Below are positions 4,035 through 33,510 of a stretch of DNA of 33,777 bases, one piece after another (position 1 is the stretch's first letter; every line of letters begins with the position of its first letter). The notes beneath the pieces were generated by a model that was given only the letters and a program-made list of their open reading frames with translations, was not told where the DNA came from and did not search any database. Where the stretch lies: assembly GCA_938040365.1 (NCBI GenBank), contig CALHXU010000246.1:1-33777 (forward strand), written 5' to 3'. This DNA is from an uncultured Acidimicrobiales bacterium. GTDB taxonomy: Bacteria > Actinomycetota > Acidimicrobiia > Acidimicrobiales > SHLQ01. A program made the position numbers and the translations under genes.

Positions 4035-4070
4035 ACTGACTAGACCTGCTCGACTGACTAGACCCGCTCA
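4035..4070. repeat. 18-bp tandem direct repeat over the stop codon
   Basis: Two copies, 4035-4052 and 4053-4070, differing in two bases (actgactagac[c/c][t/c]gctc type). The second copy contains the TAG stop of the minus-strand surface-protein gene (4058-4060). Immediately to the left, AGTCAGT-ACTGACT at 4029-4042 is a perfect 14-bp palindrome that shares bases with copy one. Confidence 0.75.
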
Positions 4071-5848
4071 CCTAGGCGACGCTGCGACCGAACGGTCACG
4101 GCGCCGAGCGCTACGAGGACAAGGCCCACAGCAAAGACCACGTTGGTGGATGCGCCGGTGATTGCAAGCGCTGGACCTGTTTGTGGCGCCGCTGGTGCTG
4201 CGACGTATCCATCAAAGAGCGGACCAACAGCCGCCACAGTTTCGACCGGGTCACCACAATCAACGGTGACACGTGCAATGGCCTCATCAGGGGTGAGGAG
4301 GTTTCTCACAACCGTTCCTGCAGCCGTCTGGAAGTTCTCGATGTTCGCCAACCGATCTGGGTGGATACCTACGGTCGATGTTGGATCATCGGTCGAAGTT
4401 CCGCCGTCACCGTTAAGACCCTGCGAGAATCCAGCAGCACCCTGGCCATCGTTGACCTCGGTACCCGCGTCGTAGATGTCAGACGCAAGGACGTCGAACG
4501 TCACCGGACCAGTGAAGTTTCCGGCAGCATCGAACAGCTCGTACGCCAATGGATCATCGTTACCAATGAACGCATCGTTCGAAGGAATGAGCATCGAGGC
4601 ATACGAGAAGTAGCGGTATGCCGCTGCGTTGCGAACCACGATCGAACCCTCGATCGTCTCTCCTGGAGAGATGAACTGGACGTTGCCGTTGCCGATCGTC
4701 GTTTGGAGGCGACCGGCCTGAGCGAACTCAGCACCGAGATCCGCGGTGTTGCCACCCTCGGCCAGAGCCTCAAGACCAGCAGAAGCACGCTGACCGGACT
4801 CAAAGAGGTCGAAGGTTCCATCGTGGAGACCAACCCATGGCTCGGTGATGAAGAATCCCATAGGAGGCTGGAGTTGCTCAAATGAGAATTGAACCGCGAC
4901 ACAAGGAGCAGCCGTTGGAGCATCACCGTCTGTTTGGAGCGCGGTGTCGCATGGAACGTTGACCGTTCCGCCAAGGCCGTCCTCGACGAAGGAGAGCGCG
5001 TTGTTATTCGCTACGCCAGGGTTCGCTGGTGTTGGCACTTCGCCCTGAAGAGGACGGAGCGGGAACGGTGCTGGGCTGTCGTCTGGCACTGGCTCAACAC
5101 TGATCACGACTGGGTATCCCGAAAGATCCGTTGGGAAGGTGCTTCCGGCAGGAGCGTTGTTGATGAAGTCTTCGCCTGGGAATGGCGGCGGAGGGTTGTC
5201 CGTGCCGTTGAAGCCGCTGCCGACGTCGGCACCGGCTGGAGTGGTGAACGTACCGGTCGAAATCGGACCGTTCGGACCGACGACCCAACCTTCATACTGC
5301 CAACCACTCAGTGGGTTTGGAACGTCGAGCGAAGCTGCAGGGCTACCTGTGGACGTCTCGAGGAACCACACACCGCTGTACTCATCTGTTGTGTCATTCG
5401 TGGTCGGGGTAGCGACGATGAACGTACCCGTCGACTCGGAGAAGTCCGTGCCGATTGCGGCGGGGTGCTCGATGTTGAGCTCTGCCGAGCAGTTGACGAA
5501 GTCACCAGCGAGAACGTGAGTGGCAGCCGGCGCTGGATCTGGGTCGGGCGAAGGCTCGATCGTGAGAACGAACGTCGCCGCATCTGCCGCATTTGGCGGC
5601 GTCGTGCTGCTGATCTGTGTCACCTCGCCAGCAGCGTCAACGGTGAAGAGTCCTGTCGAAACAGGAGCGCCATCGATGATGAGCCAGCCTTCGTATACGA
5701 ATCCGGCGCCAAGTTCTGGAAGCCCGACGTAGGACTCTTCAATGTTAGGACCGCTGGCTTGTGCGGACAGGGTCGCCGGAAACAGCGTCGCCACCATCGC
5801 AGCGACAGACAACGTCACTAACAGTCTGAACAGATTCAATCTTCTCAC
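4058..5848 (-). CDS. Secreted surface protein with spondin-like domain and LAxTG sortase signal
   Basis: 596 aa. Signal peptide: MRR, a hydrophobic core at about 8-25 and an A-x-A-type cleavage region near 28-31. Residues about 42-120 and 180-270 are two similar modules (F/Y-x-YEGW, then P-[VI]-STG-x-FT, later a V-x-[IV]-EP strand), which resemble the extracytoplasmic domain of RskA-type anti-sigma factors. Residues about 330-545 match a bacterial Spondin_N domain (FFITEPWVGLHDG, then a YFSYASMLIPSNDAFIGND segment). The end has LAITG at 561-565, a membrane span and a basic tail, as recognised by class E sortases. A GTG start is chosen because AGGAG lies 7 nt upstream. It is probably a cell-wall-attached adhesion or matrix protein; the exact role is unknown. 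Confidence 0.85.
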   Translation of the reverse strand: MRRLNLFRLLVTLSVAAMVATLFPATLSAQASGPNIEESYVGLPELGAGFVYEGWLIIDGAPVSTGLFTVDAAGEVTQISSTTPPNAADAATFVLTIEPSPDPDPAPAATHVLAGDFVNCSAELNIEHPAAIGTDFSESTGTFIVATPTTNDTTDEYSGVWFLETSTGSPAASLDVPNPLSGWQYEGWVVGPNGPISTGTFTTPAGADVGSGFNGTDNPPPPFPGEDFINNAPAGSTFPTDLSGYPVVISVEPVPDDSPAPFPLRPLQGEVPTPANPGVANNNALSFVEDGLGGTVNVPCDTALQTDGDAPTAAPCVAVQFSFEQLQPPMGFFITEPWVGLHDGTFDLFESGQRASAGLEALAEGGNTADLGAEFAQAGRLQTTIGNGNVQFISPGETIEGSIVVRNAAAYRYFSYASMLIPSNDAFIGNDDPLAYELFDAAGNFTGPVTFDVLASDIYDAGTEVNDGQGAAGFSQGLNGDGGTSTDDPTSTVGIHPDRLANIENFQTAAGTVVRNLLTPDEAIARVTVDCGDPVETVAAVGPLFDGYVAAPAAPQTGPALAITGASTNVVFAVGLVLVALGAVTVRSQRRLGERV

Positions 5849-12065: not shown

Positions 12066-12185
12066 CTCAGCGCTGGTAGTTGAGCCGAAGTCCGGTGTGA
12101 ATCCGGCACTGTCCCGCAACGGTGATGTGCGCCTCTTTCGAGAGGAGCACGAGTCCGGTCGAGCCAGCTTCCAACCTCATATTCA
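12066..12185 (+). ncRNA. Cobalamin riboswitch (B12 aptamer)
   Basis: The central conserved core is clear at about 12100-12125: GTGTGAATCCGGCACTGTCC followed by CGCAACGGTG. A strong accessory hairpin follows: GTGC-G-CCTCT (12127-12136), loop TTCG, AGAGG-A-GCAC (12141-12150). The B12-box-like GAGTCCGGTCGAGCCAGC comes next. GCTGG at 12072-12076 can close the aptamer with CCAGC at 12164-12168. A second GCTGG at 12207-12211 could compete for the same CCAGC, a possible expression switch ahead of the AAGGAG ribosome site at 12241-12246. In this RNA class, bound adenosylcobalamin normally lowers expression of the downstream genes, here corrinoid uptake and assembly. Confidence 0.93.
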
Positions 12186-12252
12186 ACCATCGCCCTCGAG
12201 GAAGGGGCTGGTCGAACACGGTTTCCTGTGTGCGATCAGCAAGGAGACCAAA

Positions 12253-13305
12253 ATGAAGATCACCCGTCCACCACGCTTTGGCGCATTCGCCAAGCTCTTC
12301 GGCCTGCTACTGGCCCTCACGATGGTCGCCGCCGCATGCGCAAGCGCCGACACCGTCGTGACCAACGTTGCCGATGAGGCAGCCGAGGAAACAGACGAAG
12401 CCATGGAGGACGAAGAAGCCATGGAAGACGACGCCATGGAAGACGACGCCATGGAAGATGAAGAGGCCATGGAGGACGTGGAGCCTGCTGTCGAAGAAGC
12501 GGCAACAGCTGTCGAAGAAGCAGTAGCTGACGAACTCGTCATTGTCTCGATGAGCCCAAGCGCCACCGAGATGCTCTTTGCGATTGGCGCTGGCGATCTC
12601 GTCGTAGCCGTCGACAACAACTCGAACTTTCCACCCGAAGCGCCAACCGACGAAGCACTCACCAGCTTCCCGGTAAACGTCGAGGGCATCGTTGGCTACG
12701 GACCAACCCACGTCGTATCGTCCGGACCGATCGAAGGACTCGCCGAAGTCGGTATCGAGAACGTCATCTTGCCATTTGCAGCAACGTTCGATGACACCTA
12801 CACCCAGATCGAACAACTCGGTGCGCTTACCGGCAATGTCGGTGAAGCTGGCGAACTTGTCGGCCAGATTCAGACCGACATCGCCGCCATCGTCGACGCA
12901 ACCGAAGCCCCGGAAGGCCTCACCTACTACCACGAGCTCGACAACACATTCTTTAGCTCGACCAGCAGCACCTTTGTTGGGCAGGTCTACTCGCTGTTCG
13001 GCCTCGAAAACATCGCAGATGCTGCCGACCCCGACGGTGAGTCATTCGGCTTCCCGCAGCTGACCGAGGAGTTCCTTATCACCGCCGACCCCGACCTCAT
13101 CTTCCTCGCCGACACCATCTGCTGCGGCCAAACCGCCGAGACGGTCGCAGCTCGCCCCGGTTGGGAAAGCCTCAGCGCCGTCACCAACGGCAATGTCGTC
13201 GAACTGAACGACGATATTGCGAGCCGTTGGGGCCCACGCATCGTCGACTACACCCAGGCGATCGCCGACGCGCTTTCTGAAGTCGAAGTCGCCGCAGCGA
13301 GCTAG
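12253..13305 (+). CDS. btuF: Corrinoid-binding lipoprotein of the vitamin B12 ABC importer
   Basis: 350 aa. AAGGAG lies 6 nt ahead of the ATG at 12253; longer readings run back into the riboswitch. The lipoprotein signal ends in VAAAC. Residues about 45-95 are a low-complexity acidic linker built of A-M-E-D-[DE] repeats, then the BtuF/FecB periplasmic-binding fold starts at ELVIVSMSPSATEMLFAIGA and includes the GIVGYGPTHVV strand. The long central helix and the second lobe (ADPDLIFLAD) follow. It captures corrinoids outside the membrane and delivers them to BtuC. B12 specificity is inferred from the riboswitch and from the cobalamin genes in the same operon; the fold alone would also allow siderophores. 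Confidence 0.92.
   Translation: MKITRPPRFGAFAKLFGLLLALTMVAAACASADTVVTNVADEAAEETDEAMEDEEAMEDDAMEDDAMEDEEAMEDVEPAVEEAATAVEEAVADELVIVSMSPSATEMLFAIGAGDLVVAVDNNSNFPPEAPTDEALTSFPVNVEGIVGYGPTHVVSSGPIEGLAEVGIENVILPFAATFDDTYTQIEQLGALTGNVGEAGELVGQIQTDIAAIVDATEAPEGLTYYHELDNTFFSSTSSTFVGQVYSLFGLENIADAADPDGESFGFPQLTEEFLITADPDLIFLADTICCGQTAETVAARPGWESLSAVTNGNVVELNDDIASRWGPRIVDYTQAIADALSEVEVAAAS
12400..12480 (+). repeat. Acidic codon repeat in btuF linker
   Basis: Five imperfect units of 12-18 bp each starting GCCATGGA, coding for AMED followed by acidic residues. It forms a flexible, strongly negative spacer between lipid anchor and binding domain. Similar acidic linkers occur in other actinobacterial binding lipoproteins. 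Confidence 0.85.
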
Positions 13306-13313
13306 CGCACACG

Positions 13314-14381
13314 ATGAACGCTCGCCCCGCCTCGATCCGATTCTCATGGGTCGTAGGCGGGGTCGCGTTCGTTTTGGGGTCGATTGCGGTTGCGCTCGTC
13401 GTTGGTCCAACGTCGATCGACCGGACCGGCGTCATCGTCGAATCGTTCGACGCTGCCCTGCCGTTCACCTTTGAATCAAACCTCGCCGACCAACAGGTTT
13501 CGATCGTCCGGAACTTGCGGCTCCCCCGGGTCACGCTCGGGCTACTCGTCGGCTCGTCGCTCGCCGTGTCGGGTGCGACCTTTCAAGGCATCTTCCGCAA
13601 CCCACTCGCCGACCCCTACCTGCTCGGTGTCGCCGCTGGCGGCGGCCTCGGTGCAACGATTGCATTTACGAACGGGCTTGGCGACGGCATCGGCGCCTTC
13701 GATCCGGTGCAGATCTTCGCCTTTGCCGGTGCGCTTTCGGCGGTGTTTCTGGCGTGGATCATGGGCAGCGCGGCAGTGACGCGCAGCTCAAATTCGGGCC
13801 TGCTCTCAAATACGTCTCGATCAGCCACCACGCTGGTGCTCGCTGGCGTCGCAATCGCCAGTTTCTACAGCGCGTTGCAGACCTATCTTCAACAGCGCAA
13901 CACCCAGGACCTCCGCCAGGTGTACAACTGGTTGCTCGGCGGGTTGAACACGTCAGGCTGGGACGAGGTCTCGCTGCTGTTCCCGGTGGCGTTGATTTCG
14001 ATCGCAATCCTCGCCTCGACAGGACGAATTCTCGATGTGCTCGCCGTGGGCGACGAGGAAGCGACAATGCTTGGAATGTCAGTTACCCGCACGCGCTTGT
14101 TTCTCATCGTCGTGGCATCGCTCCTGACGGCGAGCGCGGTTGCGGTGAGCGGGCTTATTGCGTTCGTCGGCCTCATCATCCCCCACACCGTCCGATTGCT
14201 CTTCGGTTCGAGTTATCGCATCATCGTCCCCATGTCGATCTTCGTCGGCGCGGGCTTTCTCGTGCTTTCCGACCTCCTTGCACGCACCGCACTTAGCCCC
14301 ACCGAGCTCCCCATCGGTGTGGTCACCGCATTCTTTGGAGCGCCCTTCTTTGTCGTCATACTCAGGACGTCGATTAAATGA
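13314..14381 (+). CDS. btuC: Vitamin B12 ABC importer permease (FecCD family)
   Basis: 355 aa, normal for FecCD permeases with about ten membrane spans. Family signatures are FQGIFRNPLADPYLLGVAAGG split around residues 82-102 and the late segment GLIAFVGLIIPHTVRLLFG with the cytosolic coupling region before it. A hydrophobic span follows a short N-terminus. It forms the membrane channel dimer that receives corrinoid from BtuF and is driven by BtuD. It begins 8 bp after btuF ends and overlaps btuD by four bases (ATGA), as expected for an operon read from the riboswitch leader. Confidence 0.94.
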   Translation: MNARPASIRFSWVVGGVAFVLGSIAVALVVGPTSIDRTGVIVESFDAALPFTFESNLADQQVSIVRNLRLPRVTLGLLVGSSLAVSGATFQGIFRNPLADPYLLGVAAGGGLGATIAFTNGLGDGIGAFDPVQIFAFAGALSAVFLAWIMGSAAVTRSSNSGLLSNTSRSATTLVLAGVAIASFYSALQTYLQQRNTQDLRQVYNWLLGGLNTSGWDEVSLLFPVALISIAILASTGRILDVLAVGDEEATMLGMSVTRTRLFLIVVASLLTASAVAVSGLIAFVGLIIPHTVRLLFGSSYRIIVPMSIFVGAGFLVLSDLLARTALSPTELPIGVVTAFFGAPFFVVILRTSIK

Positions 14382-15211
14382 GGGACGTCGATCGAGTGAG
14401 TGCAGTCTCCGCGGAAGACGTGTCGGTCGAGATCAAGGGCACGCGCCTGCTCGACTCGGTCTCGTTCGAGGTCTATGACGGCGAGTGGCTGTCGATTATC
14501 GGGCCCAACGGTGCGGGCAAATCGACGCTGCTGCGGGCGCTCGCCGGCGCTGCGAAGTCGGTTGGGTCGATCGAGATTGCGGGAACGCCGTTGGGCGAAC
14601 TCGACTTACGTGAAAGGGCAAAGCTGATCGCGTGGGTTCCCCAGACTCCGATCATTCCCGATGGGATGATCGTGACCGACTATGTGCTTCTCGGCCGCAC
14701 GCCCTACCTCAATGCACTCCAGAGCCCATCGGATGCCGATGTCGAGGTAGCCAACGAAACACTCGCCGAACTCGACCTCATGGGATTTGCCGGCCGGAAG
14801 GTCGAAACGTTGTCGGGAGGCGAGCGACAGCGCGTTGTCATTGCCCGCTCGCTGGTGCAAGACACGCCGATCATCTTGCTCGACGAACCAACGAGCGCTC
14901 TCGACCTCGGCCATCAACAAGACGTACTCGAGCTACTCGACCAGCTCATTGCCGAAAAGGGTCGCACGATCATCTCGACGATGCACGACCTCACCCTCGC
15001 TGGCCACTTCGCCGACCGCCTGCTTCTTCTCGGTAACGATGGTCGAGTCGCTGCGCACGGTCTCGCTCCCGACGTACTGACCGAGAAGAATATTTCCGAG
15101 CATTACAACGCCGAGGTCACGGTGACGACCGAAGACGGAACGGTCGTCGTGGCACCCAAGATCGCAAAGCAAAACAAGTCAAACACCTCCAAACCGAGAG
15201 AGAACCAATGA
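14378..15211 (+). CDS. btuD: Vitamin B12 ABC importer ATPase
   Basis: 277 aa. Walker A GPNGAGKST is at 42-50, the Q-loop Gln at 89, signature LSGGE at 145-149, Walker B with catalytic Glu (IILLDE) at 165-170, D-loop SALD at 173-176 and the switch His in STMHD. This is the FepC/BtuD subgroup that pairs with FecCD permeases. The N-terminus has about ten extra residues before the first strand and the C-terminus has a charged tail of about 20 residues rich in K, N and S. It overlaps btuC upstream and cobO downstream by ATGA, indicating translational coupling across the transporter and adenosyltransferase. Confidence 0.95.
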   Translation: MRDVDRVSAVSAEDVSVEIKGTRLLDSVSFEVYDGEWLSIIGPNGAGKSTLLRALAGAAKSVGSIEIAGTPLGELDLRERAKLIAWVPQTPIIPDGMIVTDYVLLGRTPYLNALQSPSDADVEVANETLAELDLMGFAGRKVETLSGGERQRVVIARSLVQDTPIILLDEPTSALDLGHQQDVLELLDQLIAEKGRTIISTMHDLTLAGHFADRLLLLGNDGRVAAHGLAPDVLTEKNISEHYNAEVTVTTEDGTVVVAPKIAKQNKSNTSKPRENQ

Positions 15212-15774
15212 GCAGCGAACCCGCAACAGACGAACCAGACAAGTCGACGCACAAGCCAGCGAAGTCGCTCGTCTTGGTCAATACCGGCGACGGCAAAGGA
15301 AAGTCGAGTTCCGCGTTCGGCATGATGGTCCGTGGCGTTGCCCGAGACTGGAATGTCGCCGTCGTGCAGTTCGTAAAGTCGGGCAACTGGAACGTGGGTG
15401 AAGAAAAGATCGGCCGACAGCTCGGCGTTACCTGGCTCAGTGAAGGCCAGGGCTTCACCTGGCTCTCCGAGAACCTCGACGAGGATAAGGCCATTGCCCA
15501 AGCCGGTTGGGACAAGGCTGCTGCGTTGATCAACGCAGGCGAACACGAGCTCGTCATTCTCGATGAACTCACCTACCTCATGAATTGGGGTTGGATCGAC
15601 GGCGACGCGGTGTGCGATCTGATCAAGAATCGTCCAGAGAAGGTCAGTGTGATCGTTACCGGACGAGACGCATCTGAGGGCCTCATCGAAATTGCCGACA
15701 CGGTGACCGAAATGGTCAAGGTCAAACACGCATTCGATAACGGCATCGTGGCCAAGAAGGGCATCGACTACTGA
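15208..15774 (+). CDS. cobO: Corrinoid adenosyltransferase (CobO/BtuR type)
   Basis: 188 aa. It transfers the adenosyl group of ATP to the reduced cobalt of corrinoids, making the coenzyme form. The distinctive P-loop GDGKGKSS is at residues 27-34, followed by SAFGMMVRG and the strand VAVVQFVKSG; the Walker B-like ELVILDELTYLMNWGWID (about 112-129) is highly characteristic of the CobA/CobO/BtuR family and distinguishes it from PduO and EutT. The N-terminal 18 residues are polar and likely flexible. Its position directly after the importer suggests that incoming corrinoid is adenosylated at once. The stop overlaps the cobU start by one base (TGATG). Confidence 0.96.
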   Translation: MSSEPATDEPDKSTHKPAKSLVLVNTGDGKGKSSSAFGMMVRGVARDWNVAVVQFVKSGNWNVGEEKIGRQLGVTWLSEGQGFTWLSENLDEDKAIAQAGWDKAAALINAGEHELVILDELTYLMNWGWIDGDAVCDLIKNRPEKVSVIVTGRDASEGLIEIADTVTEMVKVKHAFDNGIVAKKGIDY

Positions 15775-16331
15775 TGAGCACCTCCCCAGTTCGTGTCGGC
15801 CGCGGCTTTTCGATTCTCGTGGGCGGGGTTCGGAGCGGAAAGAGCGACCTTGCGGTCAGGCTTGGCGAGAAGTTCGATGGCGAGGTCGTGTTCGCTGCGA
15901 CCGCCGAGCCACTCGACGACGACATGGCCGATCGCATCACGCGCCACCAACACGATCGACCAGCCGATTGGGAGCTGATCGAAGCTCCCCTGCTCGATGC
16001 GGGCACGATCGCCGCTGTCGACGCGCAGGCGCTGTTGATCATCGACTGCATCACCCTCTTGGCGAGCAATCTCATCTTTGCAAAGAAGACCAACGCGCAG
16101 ATCGAAACGCACATGTCGGTGCTCGGCCACGCCCTGGTAAGCCGAACCGCTCCGACGATCGTGATCTCGAACGAAGTTGGGCTTGGGGTACATCCCGAGA
16201 CCGACCTCGGGCGTCGATATCAGGGCGTGTTGGGTCGCGCGAACAAGAGCCTTGCCGCACGAGCTGAAACGACGCTATTCGTCTCGGCGGGCAAGGTCGT
16301 TCCTCTGCAGCAACTCGATGTCGGTTGGTGA
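15774..16331 (+). CDS. cobU: Adenosylcobinamide kinase / adenosylcobinamide-phosphate guanylyltransferase
   Basis: 185 aa, standard for this bifunctional enzyme, which phosphorylates adenosylcobinamide and then adds GMP to activate it for loop attachment. The P-loop GGVRSGKS (17-24) is the CobU signature, followed by the RITRHQHDRPADWELIEAP segment (guanylylation His region), the strand LLIIDCITLLASNL and the conserved ISNEVGLGVHPETDLGRRYQ block. The C-terminal helix ends with a short tail. It is joined to cobO by TGATG overlap and its end overlaps the likely start of cobT. Confidence 0.96.
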   Translation: MSTSPVRVGRGFSILVGGVRSGKSDLAVRLGEKFDGEVVFAATAEPLDDDMADRITRHQHDRPADWELIEAPLLDAGTIAAVDAQALLIIDCITLLASNLIFAKKTNAQIETHMSVLGHALVSRTAPTIVISNEVGLGVHPETDLGRRYQGVLGRANKSLAARAETTLFVSAGKVVPLQQLDVGW

Positions 16332-17358
16332 TTCGGTGACGACATCCAAAGAGGTCACCACCGAGATGGTTTCGGCACTGCTCGCCGCTGCTCCCGACCA
16401 AAATGAAGCCGCTCGCTCCGCAGCTGCGGCGCGGGCGGGTGAGATTCTTCGGCCGACCGGTGCAATGGCCCGCCTCGACGAGGTAGCGGTGCACATGGCT
16501 GCCTGGCTCGGCACCGAAGCGCCAGCGGTAGAGGCGCCGGCCGCAATTATCTTTGCGGCAGACCACGGCGTGGCCGCCGATGGCGTGAGCGCTTATCCGA
16601 GCGACGTCACGGCAGCGATGCTCGCCGCATTCGAGGCATCAAAGGCAAGTGTCTCGGCGCTAGCCCGAGTCGCTGGAGCGACCGTGACTGCGATCGACGT
16701 CGGTGTCGGCCAGCCGACGGGAAACCTCCGGATCGAACCAGCGATGTCGCCCGTCCGGTTTGCCGAGGCTTTTGAGGCGGGCCGCACCGCGGTCGCCAAC
16801 GCCGACGCCGATCTTTTGATTTTCGGTGAGATGGGAATCGGCAACACGACCGCCGCCGCAGCGGTAACCGCCGCAATCTCGGGCGGCGAGACGCATTGCT
16901 TTGTTGGACGGGGCACCGGCGTTGACGACGACGCGCTAACCCGTAAACGAGAAGTCGTTTCCGAAGCGGTCGCGCGGATCAGCGGCATCACCGACCCGCT
17001 GGAAGTTCTCCGCCAGGTCGGCGGTGCCGAGTTGGTGGCGATCGCCGGAGCACTGACCGAGTCCCGACTTCGTTCGATTCCGGTTCTACTCGACGGGTAC
17101 ATCGCAAGTACGCCCGCTCTCGCACTGCACACGATCGACCAGCGAGCAACGAGCAACTGCCTAGCGGGCCATCGATCCAAAGAACCAGGCCACCAGCTCA
17201 TTCTCGACGCACTCGGGCTGGAACCACTCCTCTCACTCGACCTTCGATTGGGAGAAGCCTCGGGTGCAATGGCGGCCGTTCCGCTCGTCAAGATGGCGTG
17301 TGCGGTGCTGACCGAGGTTCCGACGTTCTCGGAGTGGTTCGACTCCGCCGAGGGTTAG
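16318..17358 (+). CDS. cobT: Nicotinate-nucleotide--dimethylbenzimidazole phosphoribosyltransferase
   Basis: 346 aa from the ATG at 16318, close to the family norm of about 350. A GTG at 16336 is also possible; neither has a clear ribosome site, and coupling to the cobU stop is likely. The enzyme makes alpha-ribazole phosphate, the lower-ligand nucleotide of B12. Key family segments are the N-terminal RPTGAMARLDEVAVHMAAW, FAADHGVAADGVSAYP, FGEMGIGNTT, and the C-terminal RLGEASGAM whose Glu is the general base known from Salmonella CobT. The lower-ligand base itself would have to be imported or made elsewhere, since no bluB is in this window. Confidence 0.95.
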   Translation: MSVGDSVTTSKEVTTEMVSALLAAAPDQNEAARSAAAARAGEILRPTGAMARLDEVAVHMAAWLGTEAPAVEAPAAIIFAADHGVAADGVSAYPSDVTAAMLAAFEASKASVSALARVAGATVTAIDVGVGQPTGNLRIEPAMSPVRFAEAFEAGRTAVANADADLLIFGEMGIGNTTAAAAVTAAISGGETHCFVGRGTGVDDDALTRKREVVSEAVARISGITDPLEVLRQVGGAELVAIAGALTESRLRSIPVLLDGYIASTPALALHTIDQRATSNCLAGHRSKEPGHQLILDALGLEPLLSLDLRLGEASGAMAAVPLVKMACAVLTEVPTFSEWFDSAEG

Positions 17359-26338: not shown

Positions 26339-26580
26339 CGAGCGGATCCGCAGCGGAGCGCCTAACGGCATTGCGCCCAGGGCCCGAGCGGCCCGTCGCC
26401 GGAGGCGCCCGGAGCGGGAGAAATAGAGTAGGAGCGTGCCGATAAAATCAGGCGCGGAGCGCCTATCGGCAGAGCCCCCAGGGCCCGAGCGGCCCGTCGC
26501 CGGAGGCGACCGGAGCGGGAAAGAGAGAGTAGGAGCGTGCCGATAACATCAGGCGCGGAGCGCCTATCGGCACACTCCTA
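26331..26580. repeat. 101-bp tandem repeat array between convergent genes
   Basis: Two full units (26354-26454 and 26455-26555) and a partial third (from 26556) share exact 101-bp spacing, for example CGGAGCG recurs at 26354, 26455 and 26556. A shorter related piece (GCCTAACG, then palindrome GCGGATCCGC) starts at the desaturase stop codon. Each unit holds nested hairpins with a GGA loop: GTCGCC-GGA-GGCGAC (perfect in the second unit) and GGCGC-GGA-GCGCC. The array fills the whole space between two convergent genes and overlaps both stop codons. It is not a CRISPR array: there are no unique spacers and the repeat is too long. Confidence 0.9.
26530..26580. terminator. Long stem-loop at the end of the repeat array, bidirectional terminator candidate
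   Basis: TAGGAGCGTGCCGATA (26530-26545) pairs with 26565-26580 over 16 positions with one G-A difference (G-U in one strand), enclosing a second hairpin GGCGC-GGA-GCGCC (26552-26564). The outer right arm contains the stop codon of the minus-strand gene (26578-26580). A shorter version recurs 101 bp to the left. Confidence 0.6.
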
Positions 26581-27015
26581 CTCGCGTTCGATTGTGACTG
26601 GTTCACCCAGTTCGACGGTGACCTCGTCGGCCGGCGGCGCAACGGGTTGACTATCTGTATCGACCGTCTCAGCTGCAGGTGGGTTTACCTCAGCAGGACC
26701 TGACGTCTCGTTGCGCACCCCTGCGACCATGAGGACGACAAAGACTGCGACCAGCAAGCCAATCACGACCCCCGCAGTCATCTCGGGGCCAAACCATTGA
26801 GCTAACCGCTCACGAAGACTTGGCTGGTGTGGATTCTGACGGAGAACATCGAGTTCTTCGTAGGTCTCCTCGGAGTACTGGCGACCAAAAAGCAGACTCA
26901 GACCAGAGCCGATCTCTAACTCGGCAGCTTCTTCCTCGCTTGGGATGATGTGAAGATCGGGCTCGACGCTCAGATCGTCGGAAGCAATGCGTTGCTCACC
27001 GCTGTTGGGATTCAT
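26578..27015 (-). CDS. Single-span membrane protein with LLFGRQ motif
   Basis: 145 aa from the ATG at 27015, which has AAGGAG about 10 nt ahead. The cytosolic N-terminal half is acidic and carries SLLFGRQYSEETYEELDVL (40-58); one membrane span follows at about 80-100 (AGVVIGLLVAVFVVLMVAGV), then a short Pro/Thr/Glu-rich outer tail ending ERE. No known domain is recognised. The LLFGRQ peptide is shared with the coiled-coil protein encoded just upstream on the same strand, followed in both by E-T and spaced Leu. It is probably a membrane partner of the signalling cluster; function unknown. Confidence 0.75.
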   Translation of the reverse strand: MNPNSGEQRIASDDLSVEPDLHIIPSEEEAAELEIGSGLSLLFGRQYSEETYEELDVLRQNPHQPSLRERLAQWFGPEMTAGVVIGLLVAVFVVLMVAGVRNETSGPAEVNPPAAETVDTDSQPVAPPADEVTVELGEPVTIERE

Positions 27016-27154
27016 GATGCCGGGTCTCCTTTCCTTCAACCAAATCGCTACCCCGCTTGTACCAATCGTCGGTTCTCGCCATTTCGTGAGTCCCTATGAC
27101 CAATCGAAATGAAATTCGCTACAGCGAGATGACGCTCTGACCGGCGTCAACGTC

Positions 27155-27682
27155 TTACTGATCACCGGTTGAGATGGCCGCAGCAGCTTGGGTAAGCGCG
27201 TTGGCAAGGACGTGTCGTTCTACGTTCTGTTCGCGAAGATCGATATCGACCTTCTCAATGCGCTCGCCGAGTTCTCCGCGAGCCTTGAGAAGTTGCTTGC
27301 GGAACTCGTCAGAACGCCGGTCAATACTTGCGCGAAGGTCGATCTGCACATCGCTCATCGTCTGCGCCTGTTGATCGAGGCGGTCCTCGAGGCCAGAGTC
27401 GCCAGCGAGCCGTGCATCGACTTCAGCATTGAGGCTCGCATCGAGATCGGATAAACGAGCGTCAAGATCGGCCAACCGAGTGTCGACTCGCTGCGCCAGT
27501 TCACCGATCGCGGCCATAACGTCGCGTTCCAGCTTGGTCAGCCGGTCGAGGGTTTCCTTTGCCTGCCGCCCAAACAGCAGATCGCGAATCTGACCGAGTT
27601 CGCCGTCGACCGCGTCTCCCGAAGCGGTTCCGGGAAGGTTGATCTCGACCTCTTTATTCTTCGCGCTAGTTTTCTCAGCCAT
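27155..27682 (-). CDS. Coiled-coil protein with LLFGRQ motif
   Basis: 175 aa. The ATG at 27682 follows GGAG by 8 nt; upstream ATGs in frame lack this. Residues 1-28 are polar. Then comes IRDLLFGRQAKETLDRLTKLE (32-52), and from about 45 to 155 a nearly continuous coiled coil with repeating R-L-A-D-L-D-A-R-L heptads (a segment DTRLADLDARLSDLDASLNA). There is no signal peptide or membrane span, so it is likely cytosolic and elongated, and may dimerise. I recall similar N-terminal peptides at the head of short coiled-coil proteins in other bacteria that sit near small GTPase genes, but no function is established. It is divergent from the histidine kinase. Confidence 0.75.
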   Translation of the reverse strand: MAEKTSAKNKEVEINLPGTASGDAVDGELGQIRDLLFGRQAKETLDRLTKLERDVMAAIGELAQRVDTRLADLDARLSDLDASLNAEVDARLAGDSGLEDRLDQQAQTMSDVQIDLRASIDRRSDEFRKQLLKARGELGERIEKVDIDLREQNVERHVLANALTQAAAAISTGDQ

Positions 27683-27742
27683 CTGAGGATGCTCCATCGT
27701 CGTGTGGGCCGAATGACCCATTCTGGTAATTTGATCGGCGCC

Positions 27743-27755
27743 ACGATCAGATCGT
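27743..27755. promoter_or_regulatory. Palindrome in the divergent intergenic region
   Basis: ACGATC-A-GATCGT is a perfect inverted repeat with 6-bp arms, placed between the divergent coiled-coil and histidine kinase genes (27683-27840). It could be an operator for the response regulator of this cluster or another DNA-binding protein. Confidence 0.35.
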
Positions 27756-27840
27756 TAAGGCATTCAGACAAAAATTGGTGACACTCGTCGAGACCACAGA
27801 CTTTTGCTGAACTTGTTGCTCGAATCGCCGAAAGGTCTCT

Positions 27841-28971
27841 ATGGCCGCACACTCCATGCTTCGCCACCTCGTAGAACTCGCAAAGAGCGCTACCGGTGCA
27901 GATTCAGCTGAACTCGTTATCCTCGGCGAGCCCGAGTTTCGAGTACTCGCAGGCGATCTTTCGATTGGTGGGAGCGAACGTTGGTCTGAACAGGTCCAGG
28001 TTGGATGTACCACCGAACAACTCGAGGATCTCGTCGACGATTTCCACAGTGTGATGAGCGTGCCAATTACAGGCCCTTCGGCAGAACCCGGGTGGCTCGC
28101 CGTTGCCCACACCGAACCAGGTGGACTATCTGAAACGTCGACCGACAGCCTCGACCGCGTAGCGACGCTGATCGAGGAGCGGCTCGACCGAACCGTCGAA
28201 CGAATACGGCTCGACCAACTGGGCTCGGTACTACGCGCAAACCAAGAAGACCTAAAGGTCGCCCGCGATCAACTCGCTGCCTCGAACACCGACCTCGAAC
28301 AGTTCGCGTACATCGCAGCACACGAGCTTGTTTCGCCGCTGCGATCGGTTGCAATTTATGCCGAAGTCCTCGAGAGCCTGGTCCCAAATGACGGTTCGGG
28401 TGCCAGCGACCGCGCACGCGAATGCGCAGACGCAATCCGCTCTGGCGTGACCACCATGAACCAGCAGGTCCAATATCTCCTCGAATTCTCACGGGCCGAA
28501 CAAACTGCGACAAAACTCGAGACGGTCGACCTCGCAAATGTCGTGAGCTCAGCGCTCGAGACGTTGGCCGAATCGCTTCGAGAGGTCGATGCAACGGTGA
28601 GCGTCGGTGAAATGCCGAAGGTGCAGGGACGTGAGGTCCCGCTGCAGAGCGTGTTTGCGAACCTCATTCGCAACGCCGTGAACTATCGACATCCCGACCG
28701 ACGCCTCGAACTCCAGATTTCGTCTGAAGCGTCAAACGGCAGCTACCGAATCCTCGTCACCGACAATGGTCTCGGCATCGACAGCGCCGACCACTCTCGA
28801 GTGTTTCAACTCTTCGAACGCGCCTCGACAGATTCGCCGGGTACCGGCATTGGCCTGGCCCTCAGCCGTCGCATCGTCGAGGCCTACGGTGGCGAGATCG
28901 GCGTCGATGACTCGTCGGAACGCGGCTCGGTCTTCTGGTTGGAACTGCCGCAAGCAAAAGCTGCGGCCTGA
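27841..28971 (+). CDS. Soluble sensor histidine kinase
   Basis: 376 aa. GAAAGG lies 6 nt ahead of the ATG. No membrane span is visible, so it is cytosolic. Residues about 5-120 look like a GAF-type sensor domain; 121-155 form a linking helix; the dimerisation/phosphorylation helix has FAYIAAHELVSPLRSV with His161 as phospho-acceptor. The ATPase domain has the N box NLIRNAVNYR, G1 TDNGLGID, F box RVFQLFERAS and G2 GTGIGLALSRRIVEAYGG. The H-box reads HEL, as in the phytochrome-like HisKA group. It converges on the GTPase gene with one base between stop codons. Its probable partner is the LuxR-type regulator 1.4 kb away on the other strand, inferred from position. Confidence 0.92.
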   Translation: MAAHSMLRHLVELAKSATGADSAELVILGEPEFRVLAGDLSIGGSERWSEQVQVGCTTEQLEDLVDDFHSVMSVPITGPSAEPGWLAVAHTEPGGLSETSTDSLDRVATLIEERLDRTVERIRLDQLGSVLRANQEDLKVARDQLAASNTDLEQFAYIAAHELVSPLRSVAIYAEVLESLVPNDGSGASDRARECADAIRSGVTTMNQQVQYLLEFSRAEQTATKLETVDLANVVSSALETLAESLREVDATVSVGEMPKVQGREVPLQSVFANLIRNAVNYRHPDRRLELQISSEASNGSYRILVTDNGLGIDSADHSRVFQLFERASTDSPGTGIGLALSRRIVEAYGGEIGVDDSSERGSVFWLELPQAKAAA

Positions 28972-28972
28972 G

Positions 28973-29479
28973 CTATCCCAGCGAGCTCGCAATACCGAAG
29001 AACATCGCTTCGACACCATCGCCGGTCTTTGCCGAGGTGTCAAACATATCCTTGCCGCCCACCGCGTCCTTAAGGCCATCGGCATCGTAGTCGAGGTCGG
29101 ACTTGTTGGCGACGTACACGATGTTGGCGTTGGGCGACGCTTGACTCAGTCGTTCTCCCAACCCCAGGGCGACCGGAACGGTTTCGAGCCGGGTTCGATC
29201 GAACACGACGATACCTGCGGCTGCACCACTCAAATAATTGGGCGGAACATCGAGGCCATCGGTCTCGCCGTGCATGTCCCAGATGAGCAGGGACACCTCA
29301 TTGCCGTCAACATCGACCGATTTCCGATCGACCTTCACTCCCAAGGTTGACTTGTGGGTCTCAGAGAAGACGCTATGGACGAAGCGCTGCACCAAACTTG
29401 TCTTGCCGACGCCAGGCGCACCAACGAGCACAACTTTCGCTCGCCGGATTCCTGAACCAGCCGATTTCAGAATTGCCAC
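28973..29479 (-). CDS. Ras/Rab-like small GTPase
   Basis: 168 aa, a single G domain acting as a nucleotide-dependent switch. G1 is GAPGVGKTS (20-28), G2 Thr45 in STLGV, G3 DMHGE (68-72), G4 NKSD (125-128) and G5 SAK (149-151). At the position equivalent to Ras Gln61 it has Glu, and at Ras Gly12 it has Pro. It lacks a C-terminal Cys for lipidation. The GTG start has GGGGCAG ahead of it. It lies 24 bp downstream of the LRSVLLR protein gene on the same strand and shares a transcript with it and the response regulator. No GAP, GEF or roadblock partner is encoded in the window, which sets it apart from the Streptomyces conservon GTPase CvnD. Confidence 0.92.
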   Translation of the reverse strand: MAILKSAGSGIRRAKVVLVGAPGVGKTSLVQRFVHSVFSETHKSTLGVKVDRKSVDVDGNEVSLLIWDMHGETDGLDVPPNYLSGAAAGIVVFDRTRLETVPVALGLGERLSQASPNANIVYVANKSDLDYDADGLKDAVGGKDMFDTSAKTGDGVEAMFFGIASSLG

Positions 29480-29503
29480 GCTGCCCCATTCGACAAACCT
29501 TGT

Positions 29504-30403
29504 TTAACTAAGAGCGAGGACTCCGAGGAGAATCACCGCAGCAGTCACCATAACAAGCAGAGCGACCATCACCAGCGACCGCGTGCTCGACATTGCCTTG
29601 GACTTCGCAGCATTTGCATGAAGCTCGCCCAAAACATCGGCCACGCCCACGAATGGATCGAGGCTGCCATCGAACAGAGCAAGCTCACTTGCGTACCGTC
29701 CGTGGATTCCTTCGAGGGCCTCGGCAGCGCCGTTCCGGTAGTCCTGGCTTGGAATGCCTCGGACAACCGACGCGAGAATTGCGTTGGGCCCGCTTTCTAC
29801 AAGGACGGAAAGGTCGCCGACGCGGAGATCCGACAGACCATCGTTTTCGTCGGCGGTGAATGCTTCTTGGACGAACGTCTTGAGCGCATCGATCATGCCC
29901 GATACAACATCGGCGTCCTCGAGTGCTTCTTCATTTGTCGCAGTAGACGCGAGCAACAGGCCGGTCGAGCGTTCGATCAGCAAGACCTGTTCAACCACGA
30001 ATGGTTGGCCGGCCTTGTTCTTATCAAGGGTGAACAGATCAGCGATCATCTTTCGAATCGCTGGCCCGAGTACCGGGTAGATCGCCTCGGCGAGCATCGT
30101 GTCTTCGGTCCGCGCCGAGGAGAAGATAGCGTGTTCAACTTCGGGACGGAGCGCAAGGCCAAGTTCTCCGGCCTCCCGCTTCGACGACGTGATCGCATCG
30201 ACCAAGACCTCGTCCACCACTTCTTTTCTCTCAGCGATGTCATACAAGGTCTGCTCGAGCCGGTGAACCCTCGCTACGAGCTCGTCGATCTGGCGACGTT
30301 GAGCTTCGACCACTTCACGATCGCTGCGCAGCAGCACCGAACGCAATTCATCAAGCTGGTGCGACTCGTTTGCGTCGAGGTCGATGAGCTGTGTGTTCTC
30401 CAT
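29504..30403 (-). CDS. Tail-anchored coiled-coil protein with LRSVLLR motif
   Basis: 299 aa from the ATG at 30403, which has AAGGTGAG about 10 nt upstream. The N-terminus carries LDELRSVLLRSDREVVEAQ (17-35) and a coiled coil to about residue 60. A conserved-looking central domain follows: YPVLGPAIRKMIADLF (109-124), VEQVLLIERSTGLLLAS (137-153), VVSGMIDALKTFVQEAF (166-182), LRVGDLSVLVESGPNAILA (193-211). One membrane span closes the protein (about 276-297). From memory, the same order of segments occurs in the N-terminal cytosolic part of some OmpA-family proteins of proteobacteria and cyanobacteria, which here is cut off from any OmpA domain. Function unknown; likely a membrane-tethered partner of the small GTPase. 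Confidence 0.8.
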   Translation of the reverse strand: MENTQLIDLDANESHQLDELRSVLLRSDREVVEAQRRQIDELVARVHRLEQTLYDIAERKEVVDEVLVDAITSSKREAGELGLALRPEVEHAIFSSARTEDTMLAEAIYPVLGPAIRKMIADLFTLDKNKAGQPFVVEQVLLIERSTGLLLASTATNEEALEDADVVSGMIDALKTFVQEAFTADENDGLSDLRVGDLSVLVESGPNAILASVVRGIPSQDYRNGAAEALEGIHGRYASELALFDGSLDPFVGVADVLGELHANAAKSKAMSSTRSLVMVALLVMVTAAVILLGVLALS

Positions 30404-30420
30404 GTGAGCACTCACCTTCT

Positions 30421-31044
30421 TCAGGTTGGAGGTACGAGGACGCCAGCGCGGGTCGCTTTCGCGATCGCCTCGCCCAGGGATCCCACGTTGAGTTTTCGGT
30501 AGATTGCTTTGATTCGGCCACGGACGGTATGGACCGAAAGAAACAGCGATTCAGAGATTTCGTTCGGGGTGGCGCCCGTGTTGAGCGCCTCGAGAACCTC
30601 GAGCTCGGCTGAGGTCAGTCCGAACTGCTCTTCTGACTTCTGTGGGCACTCTGCAGACGATGCGTTACCCGAGATCGTCGAACGCATTCTGGTCACGATG
30701 TCCTGGATGGATTCATCCTTCGAAATGGCGCTCACACCGACGAGCGAGTCGACTTCGCGTTGTACCTGAGGTGCAAGGAATCCGGTCAGCACAATGATCG
30801 GCGCAGTGAAGCCGTCCGCCCGAAGTTCCTCTGCGACCTTCGTGCCGGTACGCCCGTCGGGCAACCGGTAGTCGGTGATCACAAGATCGGGACTTTGGGT
30901 TGTGCATAGGTCAATTCCTTCTCCGGCGTTGCTCGCTCGACCAACCAACTTGAGGTCATCGGTAAGTGAAAGCGCAAGCCCAAACGCGTCGACAAACGAG
31001 ACCTGATCATCGATCATTACAACTCTGTCTGGTTTTACCTGCAT
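30421..31044 (-). CDS. Response regulator, NarL/FixJ (LuxR) type
   Basis: 207 aa. The receiver domain has acidic pocket Asp12-Asp13, phospho-acceptor Asp58 in DLVITDYRLPDG, Thr87 and Lys109 (AISKDES); the LuxR-type helix-turn-helix (LTSAELEVLEALNTGATPNE on to VHTVRGRIKAIYRKLNV) occupies about 143-205. It is a complete DNA-binding regulator. GAGGA lies 6 nt ahead of the ATG. It is followed 17 bp later by the LRSVLLR protein gene and then the GTPase gene, so it leads a three-gene operon, with the Ser/Thr kinase 93 bp upstream on the same strand. The nearby histidine kinase on the other strand is the likely phosphodonor (inference). Confidence 0.93.
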   Translation of the reverse strand: MQVKPDRVVMIDDQVSFVDAFGLALSLTDDLKLVGRASNAGEGIDLCTTQSPDLVITDYRLPDGRTGTKVAEELRADGFTAPIIVLTGFLAPQVQREVDSLVGVSAISKDESIQDIVTRMRSTISGNASSAECPQKSEEQFGLTSAELEVLEALNTGATPNEISESLFLSVHTVRGRIKAIYRKLNVGSLGEAIAKATRAGVLVPPT

Positions 31045-31100
31045 GGAATCCTCGTCGGCAGGGTCGAGCCGATCTAAAGGAATCTCAGAATTTTGATGGC

Positions 31101-31136
31101 GCTGTAACTCGCAGCTTCGCTGTAACTCGCAGCTTT
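31101..31136. repeat. 18-bp tandem direct repeat next to a stop codon
   Basis: Copies at 31101-31118 and 31119-31136 differ in the last base only, followed by GCTA, which merges with the stop codon of the minus-strand kinase gene (31138-31140). Each unit contains GCTG-7nt-CAGC, a small hairpin. It separates the kinase gene from the response regulator operon. Confidence 0.8.
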
Positions 31137-31137
31137 G

Positions 31138-33510
31138 CTAGTTGGCCGTCGTGACGGTGAGGCTCTGGGTCGCCGTGTTGCCGTTGCCCTGACCCTGCCC
31201 GTCAGCCTCAACGGTCACCGTGATGACATAGGTAGTACCCGGGGTAAGCGCGGGAGTCCAAAAGCCCGGAATCGCAAGATGTCGCGTCGTGCAACCGTCG
31301 GCCTGTCCAGCATTTGAACCAACGAACTCACCGGCGGCCGTACGAATTACAAACGATCCGTTCGCGCAGACGTTTGACTCGTAGTTCACTTGAAATCGGG
31401 TCGACTCGGTTGAGACGAGGCGCAGGTTCGAAAGGACCACTTGCTCGTCGGCAGCTTCTGGCTGCCCGCCCGGAGTTCGGATCGCAACTGCAGTCGACGA
31501 AACCGATGGGTTTGCGTTCAGGGTTACCTGAACCGAATAGTCAGTTCCGGGCTCTAACCCACCGACCGTTACGCCTTCGCTCACTCCGCCGAACGCGCTG
31601 CCACTTTGACTGCGGACCACAACCCCACCAGAGCTCACCGTAGCGGTGTAGGTCGTCGTCTCGGTCGACGTAAAGCGAAACGACACGCTCGTCTCGTCAA
31701 TGTCGCCAATGTCGATTCGTTCGGCGAACTGCACAGGTTCCACGACCACCGCGGCTGTAGTCGTAGTCGTTGGTGCAGTGGTCGTCGTAGTGGTGGTGGT
31801 GGTGGTCGTCGTTGGAGCGGCCGTTGTGGTGGTCGTTGTTGGCGCCGCCGTCGTGGTTGGTGCAAACGTTGGATTTACGAACACCAACGGCGGGGCAGTC
31901 ACCGGCGACTCACTGGTCGTCGGAGCGACGGGCGCGAGCGGCGGGACGACCACAGCGCCGGTAGTGGTCGGAGCGTCGATTTGTCCGGCATTGTTCGCTC
32001 CGTCACCAGGCACGGGTCGAGTCGTAGTGTCGACGTCTGTCTCAGGTAGCGACGTTTCGGGGAGTGCCGTTGTTTCAGCGAGCACCTCGACGACGACCGG
32101 ACGGTCTTCGGAAACAGCGACTCCTTCGGTCTGCGTGCTGGCAACATCTGCCACCACGTCGAGACTTTGTTCCTGATTCGCATTGGTGTCTGAAACCACC
32201 GGTGTCAACTCAGAGACCTCCGAACCGTCGCCAATGGTAGATCCACCGCCACTCGCTGCCGGAAGCGTTTCGGCCGGTTGGACGCTATTCAGCTCAGCTC
32301 GATTCTCGGCATCGACGTCGATTGTTGAGATTCGACCGTCCGCCAGCGAGTCGAGATCAGCGCTGCCGGCGGTTGTCGAGGCAAACGCATCGGTGCCGTT
32401 CCAAAGCGTCGCCGTGATCGCTCCGAGAATTCCAACCACGACAAAGACAATGCCAGCAACAACCCACAGCGCGACCAGTCGATCGTCTTCTTCCTCGTCC
32501 TCGGGCTGGCGGACCGCAACATTGACCATCGGGTCATCGACGGGAAAGAGGGCTCCACTTGCACTCTTGATTTCGGCGAGTTCGACAACCGGCAAAGAAT
32601 CAACATCTGCGAAAATCGGGACCTCACCGAAGAAGTTTCGCCCTTCCAACACCGGTTCGGAGTCACTCACTCGAAAACCAAGAACCGGATCGAACGCGGC
32701 GATCTCGTCATCATGGAGCAGTTCACGAATTTCTTCGCAGAACTCGTCCGCAGATTCAGGCCGATGTTCGATCGTCTTTGACAGCGTGCGAGAAACGAGA
32801 TCGACCACAGCTGGCGGCGCCCGATCGATAAGCAGGTCGGTAGACACATCCTCGTTGAGGACCGTAACGAACATCGCTCCCGGAGACATCCCCTCTTCGA
32901 GGACGAACGGGGCTTGTCCAGCTAGGAGGGCGAAGAGCAAGCCGCCCAACCCGTACACATCGGTTTGCTCGGATGGTTTTGCCCCGTTGAGACGCTCGGG
33001 AGGGGTATAAGCCGGCGTCATCATCTGGGCGGACATCGATGCCGTGGTGCCCATCGCTTCAGAAATGCCGAAGTCGGCGAGAAACGGCTCACCGGTGGCA
33101 TCGAGGAGCACATTCGCCGGCTTGATATCGAGGTGGAGAATCCGCTTTTCATGGGCTTGGGCCACCGCTGCAGCGACCTTCGCAGCGAGCTCGAGTGCTT
33201 CGCGCCACGGCACCGGCCCCTCGGTGATCCGATGCTGAAGGGAGCCACCGTCGAAGAGTGGCATCACGATAAAGGGGTCACCAGCAGGGGTAATTCCCGA
33301 ATCGAGAACGGGAGCAACATGGTCGAGAGAATCGAGTGTCGACATGGCCATGCGCTCTCGCTCGAATCGTCGAGCTACTGCGTCGTCGCCACCACCTCGC
33401 AACACCTTCACGGCGACCACGTCGCCAGTCTCAGATCGAGTTGCCTGATACACGTGCGCATTGCCGCCTGCGCCTACGAGTGAAAAGCCCTCATAGCTCG
33501 GAATGTCCAA
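31138..33510 (-). CDS. Membrane Ser/Thr protein kinase with fibronectin-type extracellular domains
   Basis: 790 aa. The kinase domain spans residues 1-270: glycine loop VGAGGNAHV, VAVKVL with Lys35, HLDIKPANVLL with catalytic Asp128, DFG 146-148 and PPE 170-172. HLD in place of HRD makes it a non-RD kinase, so activation-loop phosphorylation may not be required. After an acidic juxtamembrane stretch comes one span (VALWVVAGIVFVVVGILGAI, about 345-365), a Thr/Val/Ser-rich region, a poly-Thr/Ala/Pro spacer, and two fibronectin-III-like modules at the C-terminus outside the cell. It starts at a TTG because a stop codon lies close upstream in frame and no ATG or GTG intervenes. This layout fits PknB-like sensors that read a cell-wall or surface cue. 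Confidence 0.92.
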   Translation of the reverse strand: MDIPSYEGFSLVGAGGNAHVYQATRSETGDVVAVKVLRGGGDDAVARRFERERMAMSTLDSLDHVAPVLDSGITPAGDPFIVMPLFDGGSLQHRITEGPVPWREALELAAKVAAAVAQAHEKRILHLDIKPANVLLDATGEPFLADFGISEAMGTTASMSAQMMTPAYTPPERLNGAKPSEQTDVYGLGGLLFALLAGQAPFVLEEGMSPGAMFVTVLNEDVSTDLLIDRAPPAVVDLVSRTLSKTIEHRPESADEFCEEIRELLHDDEIAAFDPVLGFRVSDSEPVLEGRNFFGEVPIFADVDSLPVVELAEIKSASGALFPVDDPMVNVAVRQPEDEEEDDRLVALWVVAGIVFVVVGILGAITATLWNGTDAFASTTAGSADLDSLADGRISTIDVDAENRAELNSVQPAETLPAASGGGSTIGDGSEVSELTPVVSDTNANQEQSLDVVADVASTQTEGVAVSEDRPVVVEVLAETTALPETSLPETDVDTTTRPVPGDGANNAGQIDAPTTTGAVVVPPLAPVAPTTSESPVTAPPLVFVNPTFAPTTTAAPTTTTTTAAPTTTTTTTTTTTTAPTTTTTAAVVVEPVQFAERIDIGDIDETSVSFRFTSTETTTYTATVSSGGVVVRSQSGSAFGGVSEGVTVGGLEPGTDYSVQVTLNANPSVSSTAVAIRTPGGQPEAADEQVVLSNLRLVSTESTRFQVNYESNVCANGSFVIRTAAGEFVGSNAGQADGCTTRHLAIPGFWTPALTPGTTYVITVTVEADGQGQGNGNTATQSLTVTTAN

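Follow-up and report, generated by a model that had tools for sequence, protein, structure and literature searches.

A Group 1 Rup-like signalling unit of five genes, with a predicted longin-domain protein, in an uncultured Acidimicrobiales bacterium

We analysed a 33,777-nucleotide stretch of DNA (hereafter the window; positions 1 to 33,777 of CALHXU010000246.1) from an uncultured Acidimicrobiales bacterium. The window corresponds to contig 246 in the incomplete 3.6-Mb genome assembly (GCA_938040365.1). An earlier note, made from the sequence, had proposed that seven neighbouring open reading frames (ORFs) form a possibly undescribed signalling system joining a Ser/Thr kinase, a two-component pair and a Ras/Rab-like GTPase. 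The functional unit comprises five of these genes, encoding a response regulator (RR), a membrane-anchored protein (protein C), a Rab-like small GTPase, a cytosolic histidine kinase (HK) and a soluble coiled-coil protein (protein F). With a probability of roughly two in three, these genes are the form that the Group 1 Rup system takes in Acidimicrobiales, in which C would control the GTPase, F would serve as a scaffold and the GTP-bound complex would switch the HK and, through it, the RR. Group 1 Rup arrangements were described in 2014 (Wuichet and Sogaard-Andersen; PMC4316618), and judged against that description, the window system is an actinobacterial variant of this known kind. The proposed signalling system stands insofar as a conserved unit couples a GTP switch with a His-Asp relay, at the membrane; its description as new and the membership of the Ser/Thr kinase do not. 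What appears to be new concerns the 'domain of unknown function' in C, which models predict to be a longin domain.

Gene linkage and the extent of the unit

All seven ORFs were present and Pfam supports the catalytic ones; protein C, protein F and a further protein (protein G), noted earlier as having no known role, matched no Pfam family. The HK gene (27841..28971) is on the forward strand and the other six are on the reverse strand, with the HK ORF convergent with the GTPase ORF (28973..29479) and the two ends two bases apart. The remaining core genes encode protein C (29504..30415), the RR (30421..31044) and protein F (27155..27721).

Protein C was present in 10 of the 19 genomes of the source family, namely the source genome and nine relatives, which are metagenome-assembled genomes of uncultured Acidimicrobiales. 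In all nine relatives the RR, C and GTPase genes were consecutive on one strand and convergent with the HK gene, except that one contig (L022) ends before the RR, and gene order was maintained as far as the contigs reach. The HK was observed in 10 of 10 family loci with its phospho-acceptor motif intact, and F-like ORFs were observed beyond the HK gene in most of the nine relatives. These relatives of C surfaced only with a family-level search; among 247 genomes across the class (BLAST) and 396 of the phylum (profile search), the window was the sole match. The earlier note had held that scattered homologues would speak against a system, and we observed linkage instead, both within the family and beyond it.

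A scan of genome contigs with an alignment of C yielded 116 matches, and 80 loci were retained from it. These loci were distributed over Acidimicrobiales, one Thermoleophilia, Gamma-, Beta- and Alphaproteobacteria, Mariprofundaceae, Desulfobacteraceae, Acidobacteriota, Planctomycetota, Gemmatimonadota, Calditrichia and SAR324. A GTPase related to that of the window was present in 79 of the 80, and in at least 74 its gene directly follows that of C; in L059 the contig stops within C. Outside Acidimicrobiales the C homologues are mostly 470-730 amino acids long, with an OmpA domain near the C-terminus in all four tested, and homologues in other phyla and classes were mostly preceded by an F homologue. 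ORFs fusing C to the GTPase were sought and none was found. In one Pyrinomonadaceae locus (L069:5417-6601) a tandem pair of Rup-type GTPase genes was observed behind a single C gene.

The claim of seven genes was not borne out. An undescribed system of that extent would have the Ser/Thr kinase (31138..33510, reverse strand; Pkinase 7e-37, fn3 4e-6) as the sensor of an outside cue, phosphorylating the GTPase, the regulator or the two proteins that share an LLFGRQ motif (F and G). The kinase gene lies 93 nucleotides upstream of the RR gene on the same strand, making co-transcription possible, and the only two LLFGRQ matches in the genome fall in F and G. However, a Ser/Thr kinase gene was observed near the unit in none of the nine family relatives, a kinase gene was near C in 1 of the 80 loci, and the genome contains nine Pkinase matches. 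Protein G (26578..27039, reverse strand), a single-span accessory protein, is lineage-specific, with a homologue in the closest relative only (L014/L024). We consider this explanation improbable. Since the Ser/Thr kinase is unlinked in relatives and G is confined to the closest relative, the unit is one of five genes, and the kinase is most likely a chance neighbour, even if it may be co-transcribed here. This kinase carries one FN3 domain and a Thr-rich linker in place of PASTA repeats, and falls far under the PknB-PASTA cut-off.

The GTPase and the predicted longin domain of protein C

The window GTPase matched Pfam Ras (1e-23), and its nearest solved chains are Rab5. Its motifs are GAPGVGKT, WDMHGET, NKSDL and SAKTG, the second of which is missing the catalytic G3 Gln. 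This residue is also missing in nearly all of the 74 C-linked GTPases (exceptions L054 and L070), and the window GTPase is 41% identical to a C-linked GTPase from a gammaproteobacterium. No such GTPase was found in a scan of viral contigs.

In PMC4316618, Group 1 Rup comprises a GTPase without the G3 Gln, a coiled-coil cytoplasmic protein, a conserved domain of unknown function that is often followed by a transmembrane helix and OmpA, and a nearby output module (an HK or a cyclic di-GMP enzyme) whose N-terminal region has an invariant Gln. The window unit is alike in its Rab/Ras-like GTPase without the G3 Gln, its coiled-coil protein, its membrane protein with a domain of unknown function and its HK output. 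It is unlike in its C protein, which has a tail anchor only and no OmpA, in its fixed LuxR-type regulator, inverted HK gene and placement of F beyond the HK, and in its predicted longin fold, which that paper does not report. From the description given there, we infer that the C family corresponds to the proteins of that paper. According to the same paper, Rup GTPases have, among prokaryotic proteins, the G motifs closest to those of the eukaryotic Ras superfamily, and none of the 121 is coupled to MglB; at the time of description none had been experimentally characterised, and the partner replacing MglB was open (PMC4316618).

Protein C consists of an N-terminal LxxLRxxLL helix and coiled coil, a predicted longin domain (residues 140-270; 29606..29998) and a C-terminal transmembrane helix (about residues 281-302; 29510..29575), the last assigned from sequence and from the hydrophobicity of the tail in orthologues. 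With 10 full-length C sequences, AlphaFold2 placed the elements bb-a-bbb-a after the coiled coil at a low overall pLDDT of 58, while 68 core sequences gave bb-a-bbb-aa with a pLDDT of 73.7 and a pTM of 0.58. The 68-sequence model aligned to the longin of Sec22b with a Z of 15.3 (rmsd 2.3 over 126 residues) and to that of Ykt6 with 13.6, where the best Z for models with no clear match is typically 7 to 8 with this structural alignment tool. Further matches of this model included VAMP7, AP sigma chains, subunits of Fuzzy-Inturned, TRAPP and Mon1-Ccz1, and the Asgard longin 8yqg. The 10-sequence model, from an independent alignment, returned a near-identical list (Sec22b 14.9, VAMP7 14.5, Ykt6 13.9), and Foldseek by itself additionally listed Rag and LAMTOR chains. 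The VIA top-50 lists held longins and their relatives and no MglB, an absence from these lists that excludes nothing. By the criteria of PMC10933270, the element order of the C model and its extra C-terminal helix are those of a longin and not of a roadblock.

Protein C is accordingly placed, by prediction, among proteins containing a longin domain of the longin/roadblock fold group. A Pfam scan of the 68 C cores gave scattered chance matches only. Because sequence methods gave no link to the longin or roadblock families, we treat the longin as a fold prediction and not as demonstrated homology. The earlier statement that the cluster has no roadblock or DUF742 protein is correct as far as Pfam goes (no Robl_LC7 and no DUF742), but needs amending in that C holds a predicted longin-type domain. 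A published link between longins and Rup was not found in the open-access literature searched, which did not extend to subscription papers.

Outputs, protein F and the proposed switch

The RR has a receiver domain and a LuxR/GerE helix-turn-helix (Response_reg 7e-13, GerE 5e-11), with intact receiver residues and D12, D13, D58, T87 and K109 invariant in 9 orthologues. The HK has an N-terminal sensor-like region ahead of HisKA (8e-10) and HATPase_c (3e-23). With both the phospho-acceptor motif of the HK and the receiver residues of the RR intact, a change in transcription is the expected result.

The enzymes encoded after the GTPase are interchangeable. Among 41 loci scanned for them, we observed 17 HKs, 15 HD-GYP-like proteins, 5 SpoIIE proteins, one GGDEF-EAL protein and one class III cyclase, and this variety points to the GTPase module as an upstream switch. 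An N-terminal Gln was conserved in 42 of 45 outputs of other loci; the window HK, whose N-terminus does not align with these, has an invariant Asn-Gln pair of its own ahead of HisKA. The output following C and the GTPase in Mariprofundus (L071:9817-10836) is a class III adenylate/guanylate cyclase. Cyclase, SpoIIE phosphatase and HD-GYP-like outputs are types that the text of PMC4316618 does not name.

Protein F carries an IRDLLFGRQ motif, whose LLFGRQ is encoded at 27563..27580 (reverse strand). At least 54 of the 80 loci have, close to C, an ORF with a motif like [LIVM]xxIRxILFGxQ (6 of 2461 ORFs match in a shuffled control), and F homologues were found by blastp in 26 loci. The motif Gln position is occupied by Gln in 37 and by His in 9 of 54 F homologues. 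A related N-terminal motif of the LxxLRxLLLG type was observed in C at 61 of 80 loci with a loose pattern. The LLFGRQ of the window is, by these comparisons, a local copy of an old family motif of F.

The earlier observation that F and G share LLFGRQ was confirmed, with the coding pattern matching the 3.6-Mb genome exactly twice, in these adjacent genes and with different synonymous codons (in G at 26878..26895, reverse strand). A reversed control pattern also matched twice, so that one or two matches are expected by chance, though not in two genes side by side. LLFGRQ is missing from the G protein of the closest relative (L014), so that either the window G may have gained an F-like docking motif or the L014 G may have lost its motif.

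In the proposed mechanism, C would be a platform that its C-terminal helix anchors in the membrane, and it would recruit the GTPase there. Its longin domain would bind the Rab-like GTPase and control its nucleotide state, by analogy with the longin/roadblock dimers that act with Rab, Rag and MglA GTPases (MglB, TRAPP, Mon1-Ccz1). Longin domains control Rab switches in human cells. Protein F, which has a short N-terminal motif of a type common with C, would be a soluble scaffold that connects the output protein with C or the GTPase. The conserved Gln of F is a speculative candidate for the missing catalytic residue of the GTPase. The GTP-bound complex would then switch the cytosolic HK, which would pass phosphate to the LuxR-type RR, and transcription would thereby respond to a cue at the membrane or envelope. 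Binding of the GTPase by C, an exchange-factor or GTPase-activating role of C, F as adaptor, the HK as effector and the HK-RR pairing are the parts of this scheme that we infer. OmpA domains attach to peptidoglycan, and those of C homologues would do so in outer-membrane bacteria; the lack of OmpA in the window C would fit a different envelope.

Several results weigh against this mechanism. The N-terminus of the window HK has no detectable relation to that of the outputs of other phyla, and the HK gene, being convergent with the GTPase gene, is outside its operon. The longin assignment of C rests on prediction, the best solved sequence match of C was a roadblock (weak, E 0.24), and comparing the C core by hhalign with roadblock (CvnB-type) proteins of these genomes gave no match. 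The strand of the HK gene and its unusual N-terminus are also what would be seen if two independent modules were merely inherited together, with the Rup GTPase, C and F acting on the envelope or polarity and the HK-RR pair responding to a cytosolic ligand of its own. Yet in those family relatives that were tested the HK and RR remain with C and the GTPase, and at many loci elsewhere the gene after the GTPase encodes a signalling enzyme; we regard separate modules as unlikely.

The broader proposal, that in Group 1 Rup the unknown domain is a genuine longin of bacteria, one that binds the Rab-like GTPase encoded beside it and regulates it, and hence that Rab-longin pairing already exists in bacteria, appears to us evenly balanced. 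If true, a pairing known from eukaryotic traffic would exist in bacteria as a gene-linked, membrane-anchored module with exchangeable outputs. Given that no MglB genes are reported beside Rup GTPases in PMC4316618 and that the C model is longin-like, these GTPases would have an adjacent longin-type platform (predicted), a concrete candidate for their partner. That HKs, HD-GYP-like proteins, SpoIIE phosphatases and cyclases can replace one another as outputs suggests a general bacterial G-protein switch feeding different second-messenger and phosphorelay systems.

Conservons, other GTPase systems and surrounding genes

The combination of an HK, a small GTPase and a membrane link in an actinobacterium recalls the conservons (CvnA-D), and the same genome contains a complete conservon (L120: HK with HAMP, Robl_LC7, DUF742 and ATP_bind_1 GTPase). 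A degenerate or divergent conservon that has lost its roadblock and DUF742 proteins is nevertheless a very improbable reading of the unit in this genome. Its conservon GTPases belong to the ATP_bind_1/MglA type, and that of L120, the only one compared, had no significant BLASTP similarity to the window GTPase; relatives of C and the GTPase occur in Proteobacteria and other groups; and Pfam identified no HAMP domain in the window HK. Both systems have an HK, a small GTPase and accessory proteins, with a member of the longin/roadblock group (predicted, for C) beside the GTPase. The window differs from conservons in its GTPase, which is Ras-type by Pfam and not of the CvnD type (ATP_bind_1/MglA group 2), in having a predicted longin instead of Robl_LC7 (CvnB) and no DUF742 (CvnC) by Pfam, and in its cytosolic HK with a partner regulator. 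The window system is analogous to a conservon and is not a member. Four roadblock genes were observed in the genome (L118, L119, L120 and L121, on contigs 213, 173, 73 and 86), three of them beyond the conservon of L120 and situated in clusters that resemble conservons. L121 combines a roadblock with a Ras-like GTPase, and no HK was seen nearby.

MglA/MglB of Myxococcus likewise has a protein of the longin/roadblock group encoded beside the GTPase, but MglB is a roadblock protein and, in PMC4316618, no coupling of Rup GTPases to it was found. The eukaryotic TRAPP, Mon1-Ccz1 and Fuzzy-Inturned complexes resemble the proposed unit in that a longin fold (predicted, for C) and a Rab-like GTPase are brought together at a membrane; unlike them, C has no detectable sequence homology and the outputs are bacterial enzymes rather than trafficking. 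In the Asgard archaeon MK-D1, GTPase genes are generally outside operons with roadblock/longin genes (PMC10933270), and GTPase pairs are hard to assign as a result, whereas here the gene order gives the pair.

A promoter scan was uninformative, with one site, similar to the number in shuffles. Elsewhere in the window, a spondin-domain protein (NF038123) is encoded at 4058-5848, and B12-type ABC transporter genes lie near cobT at 12097-17358, likely a cobalamin uptake and salvage region.

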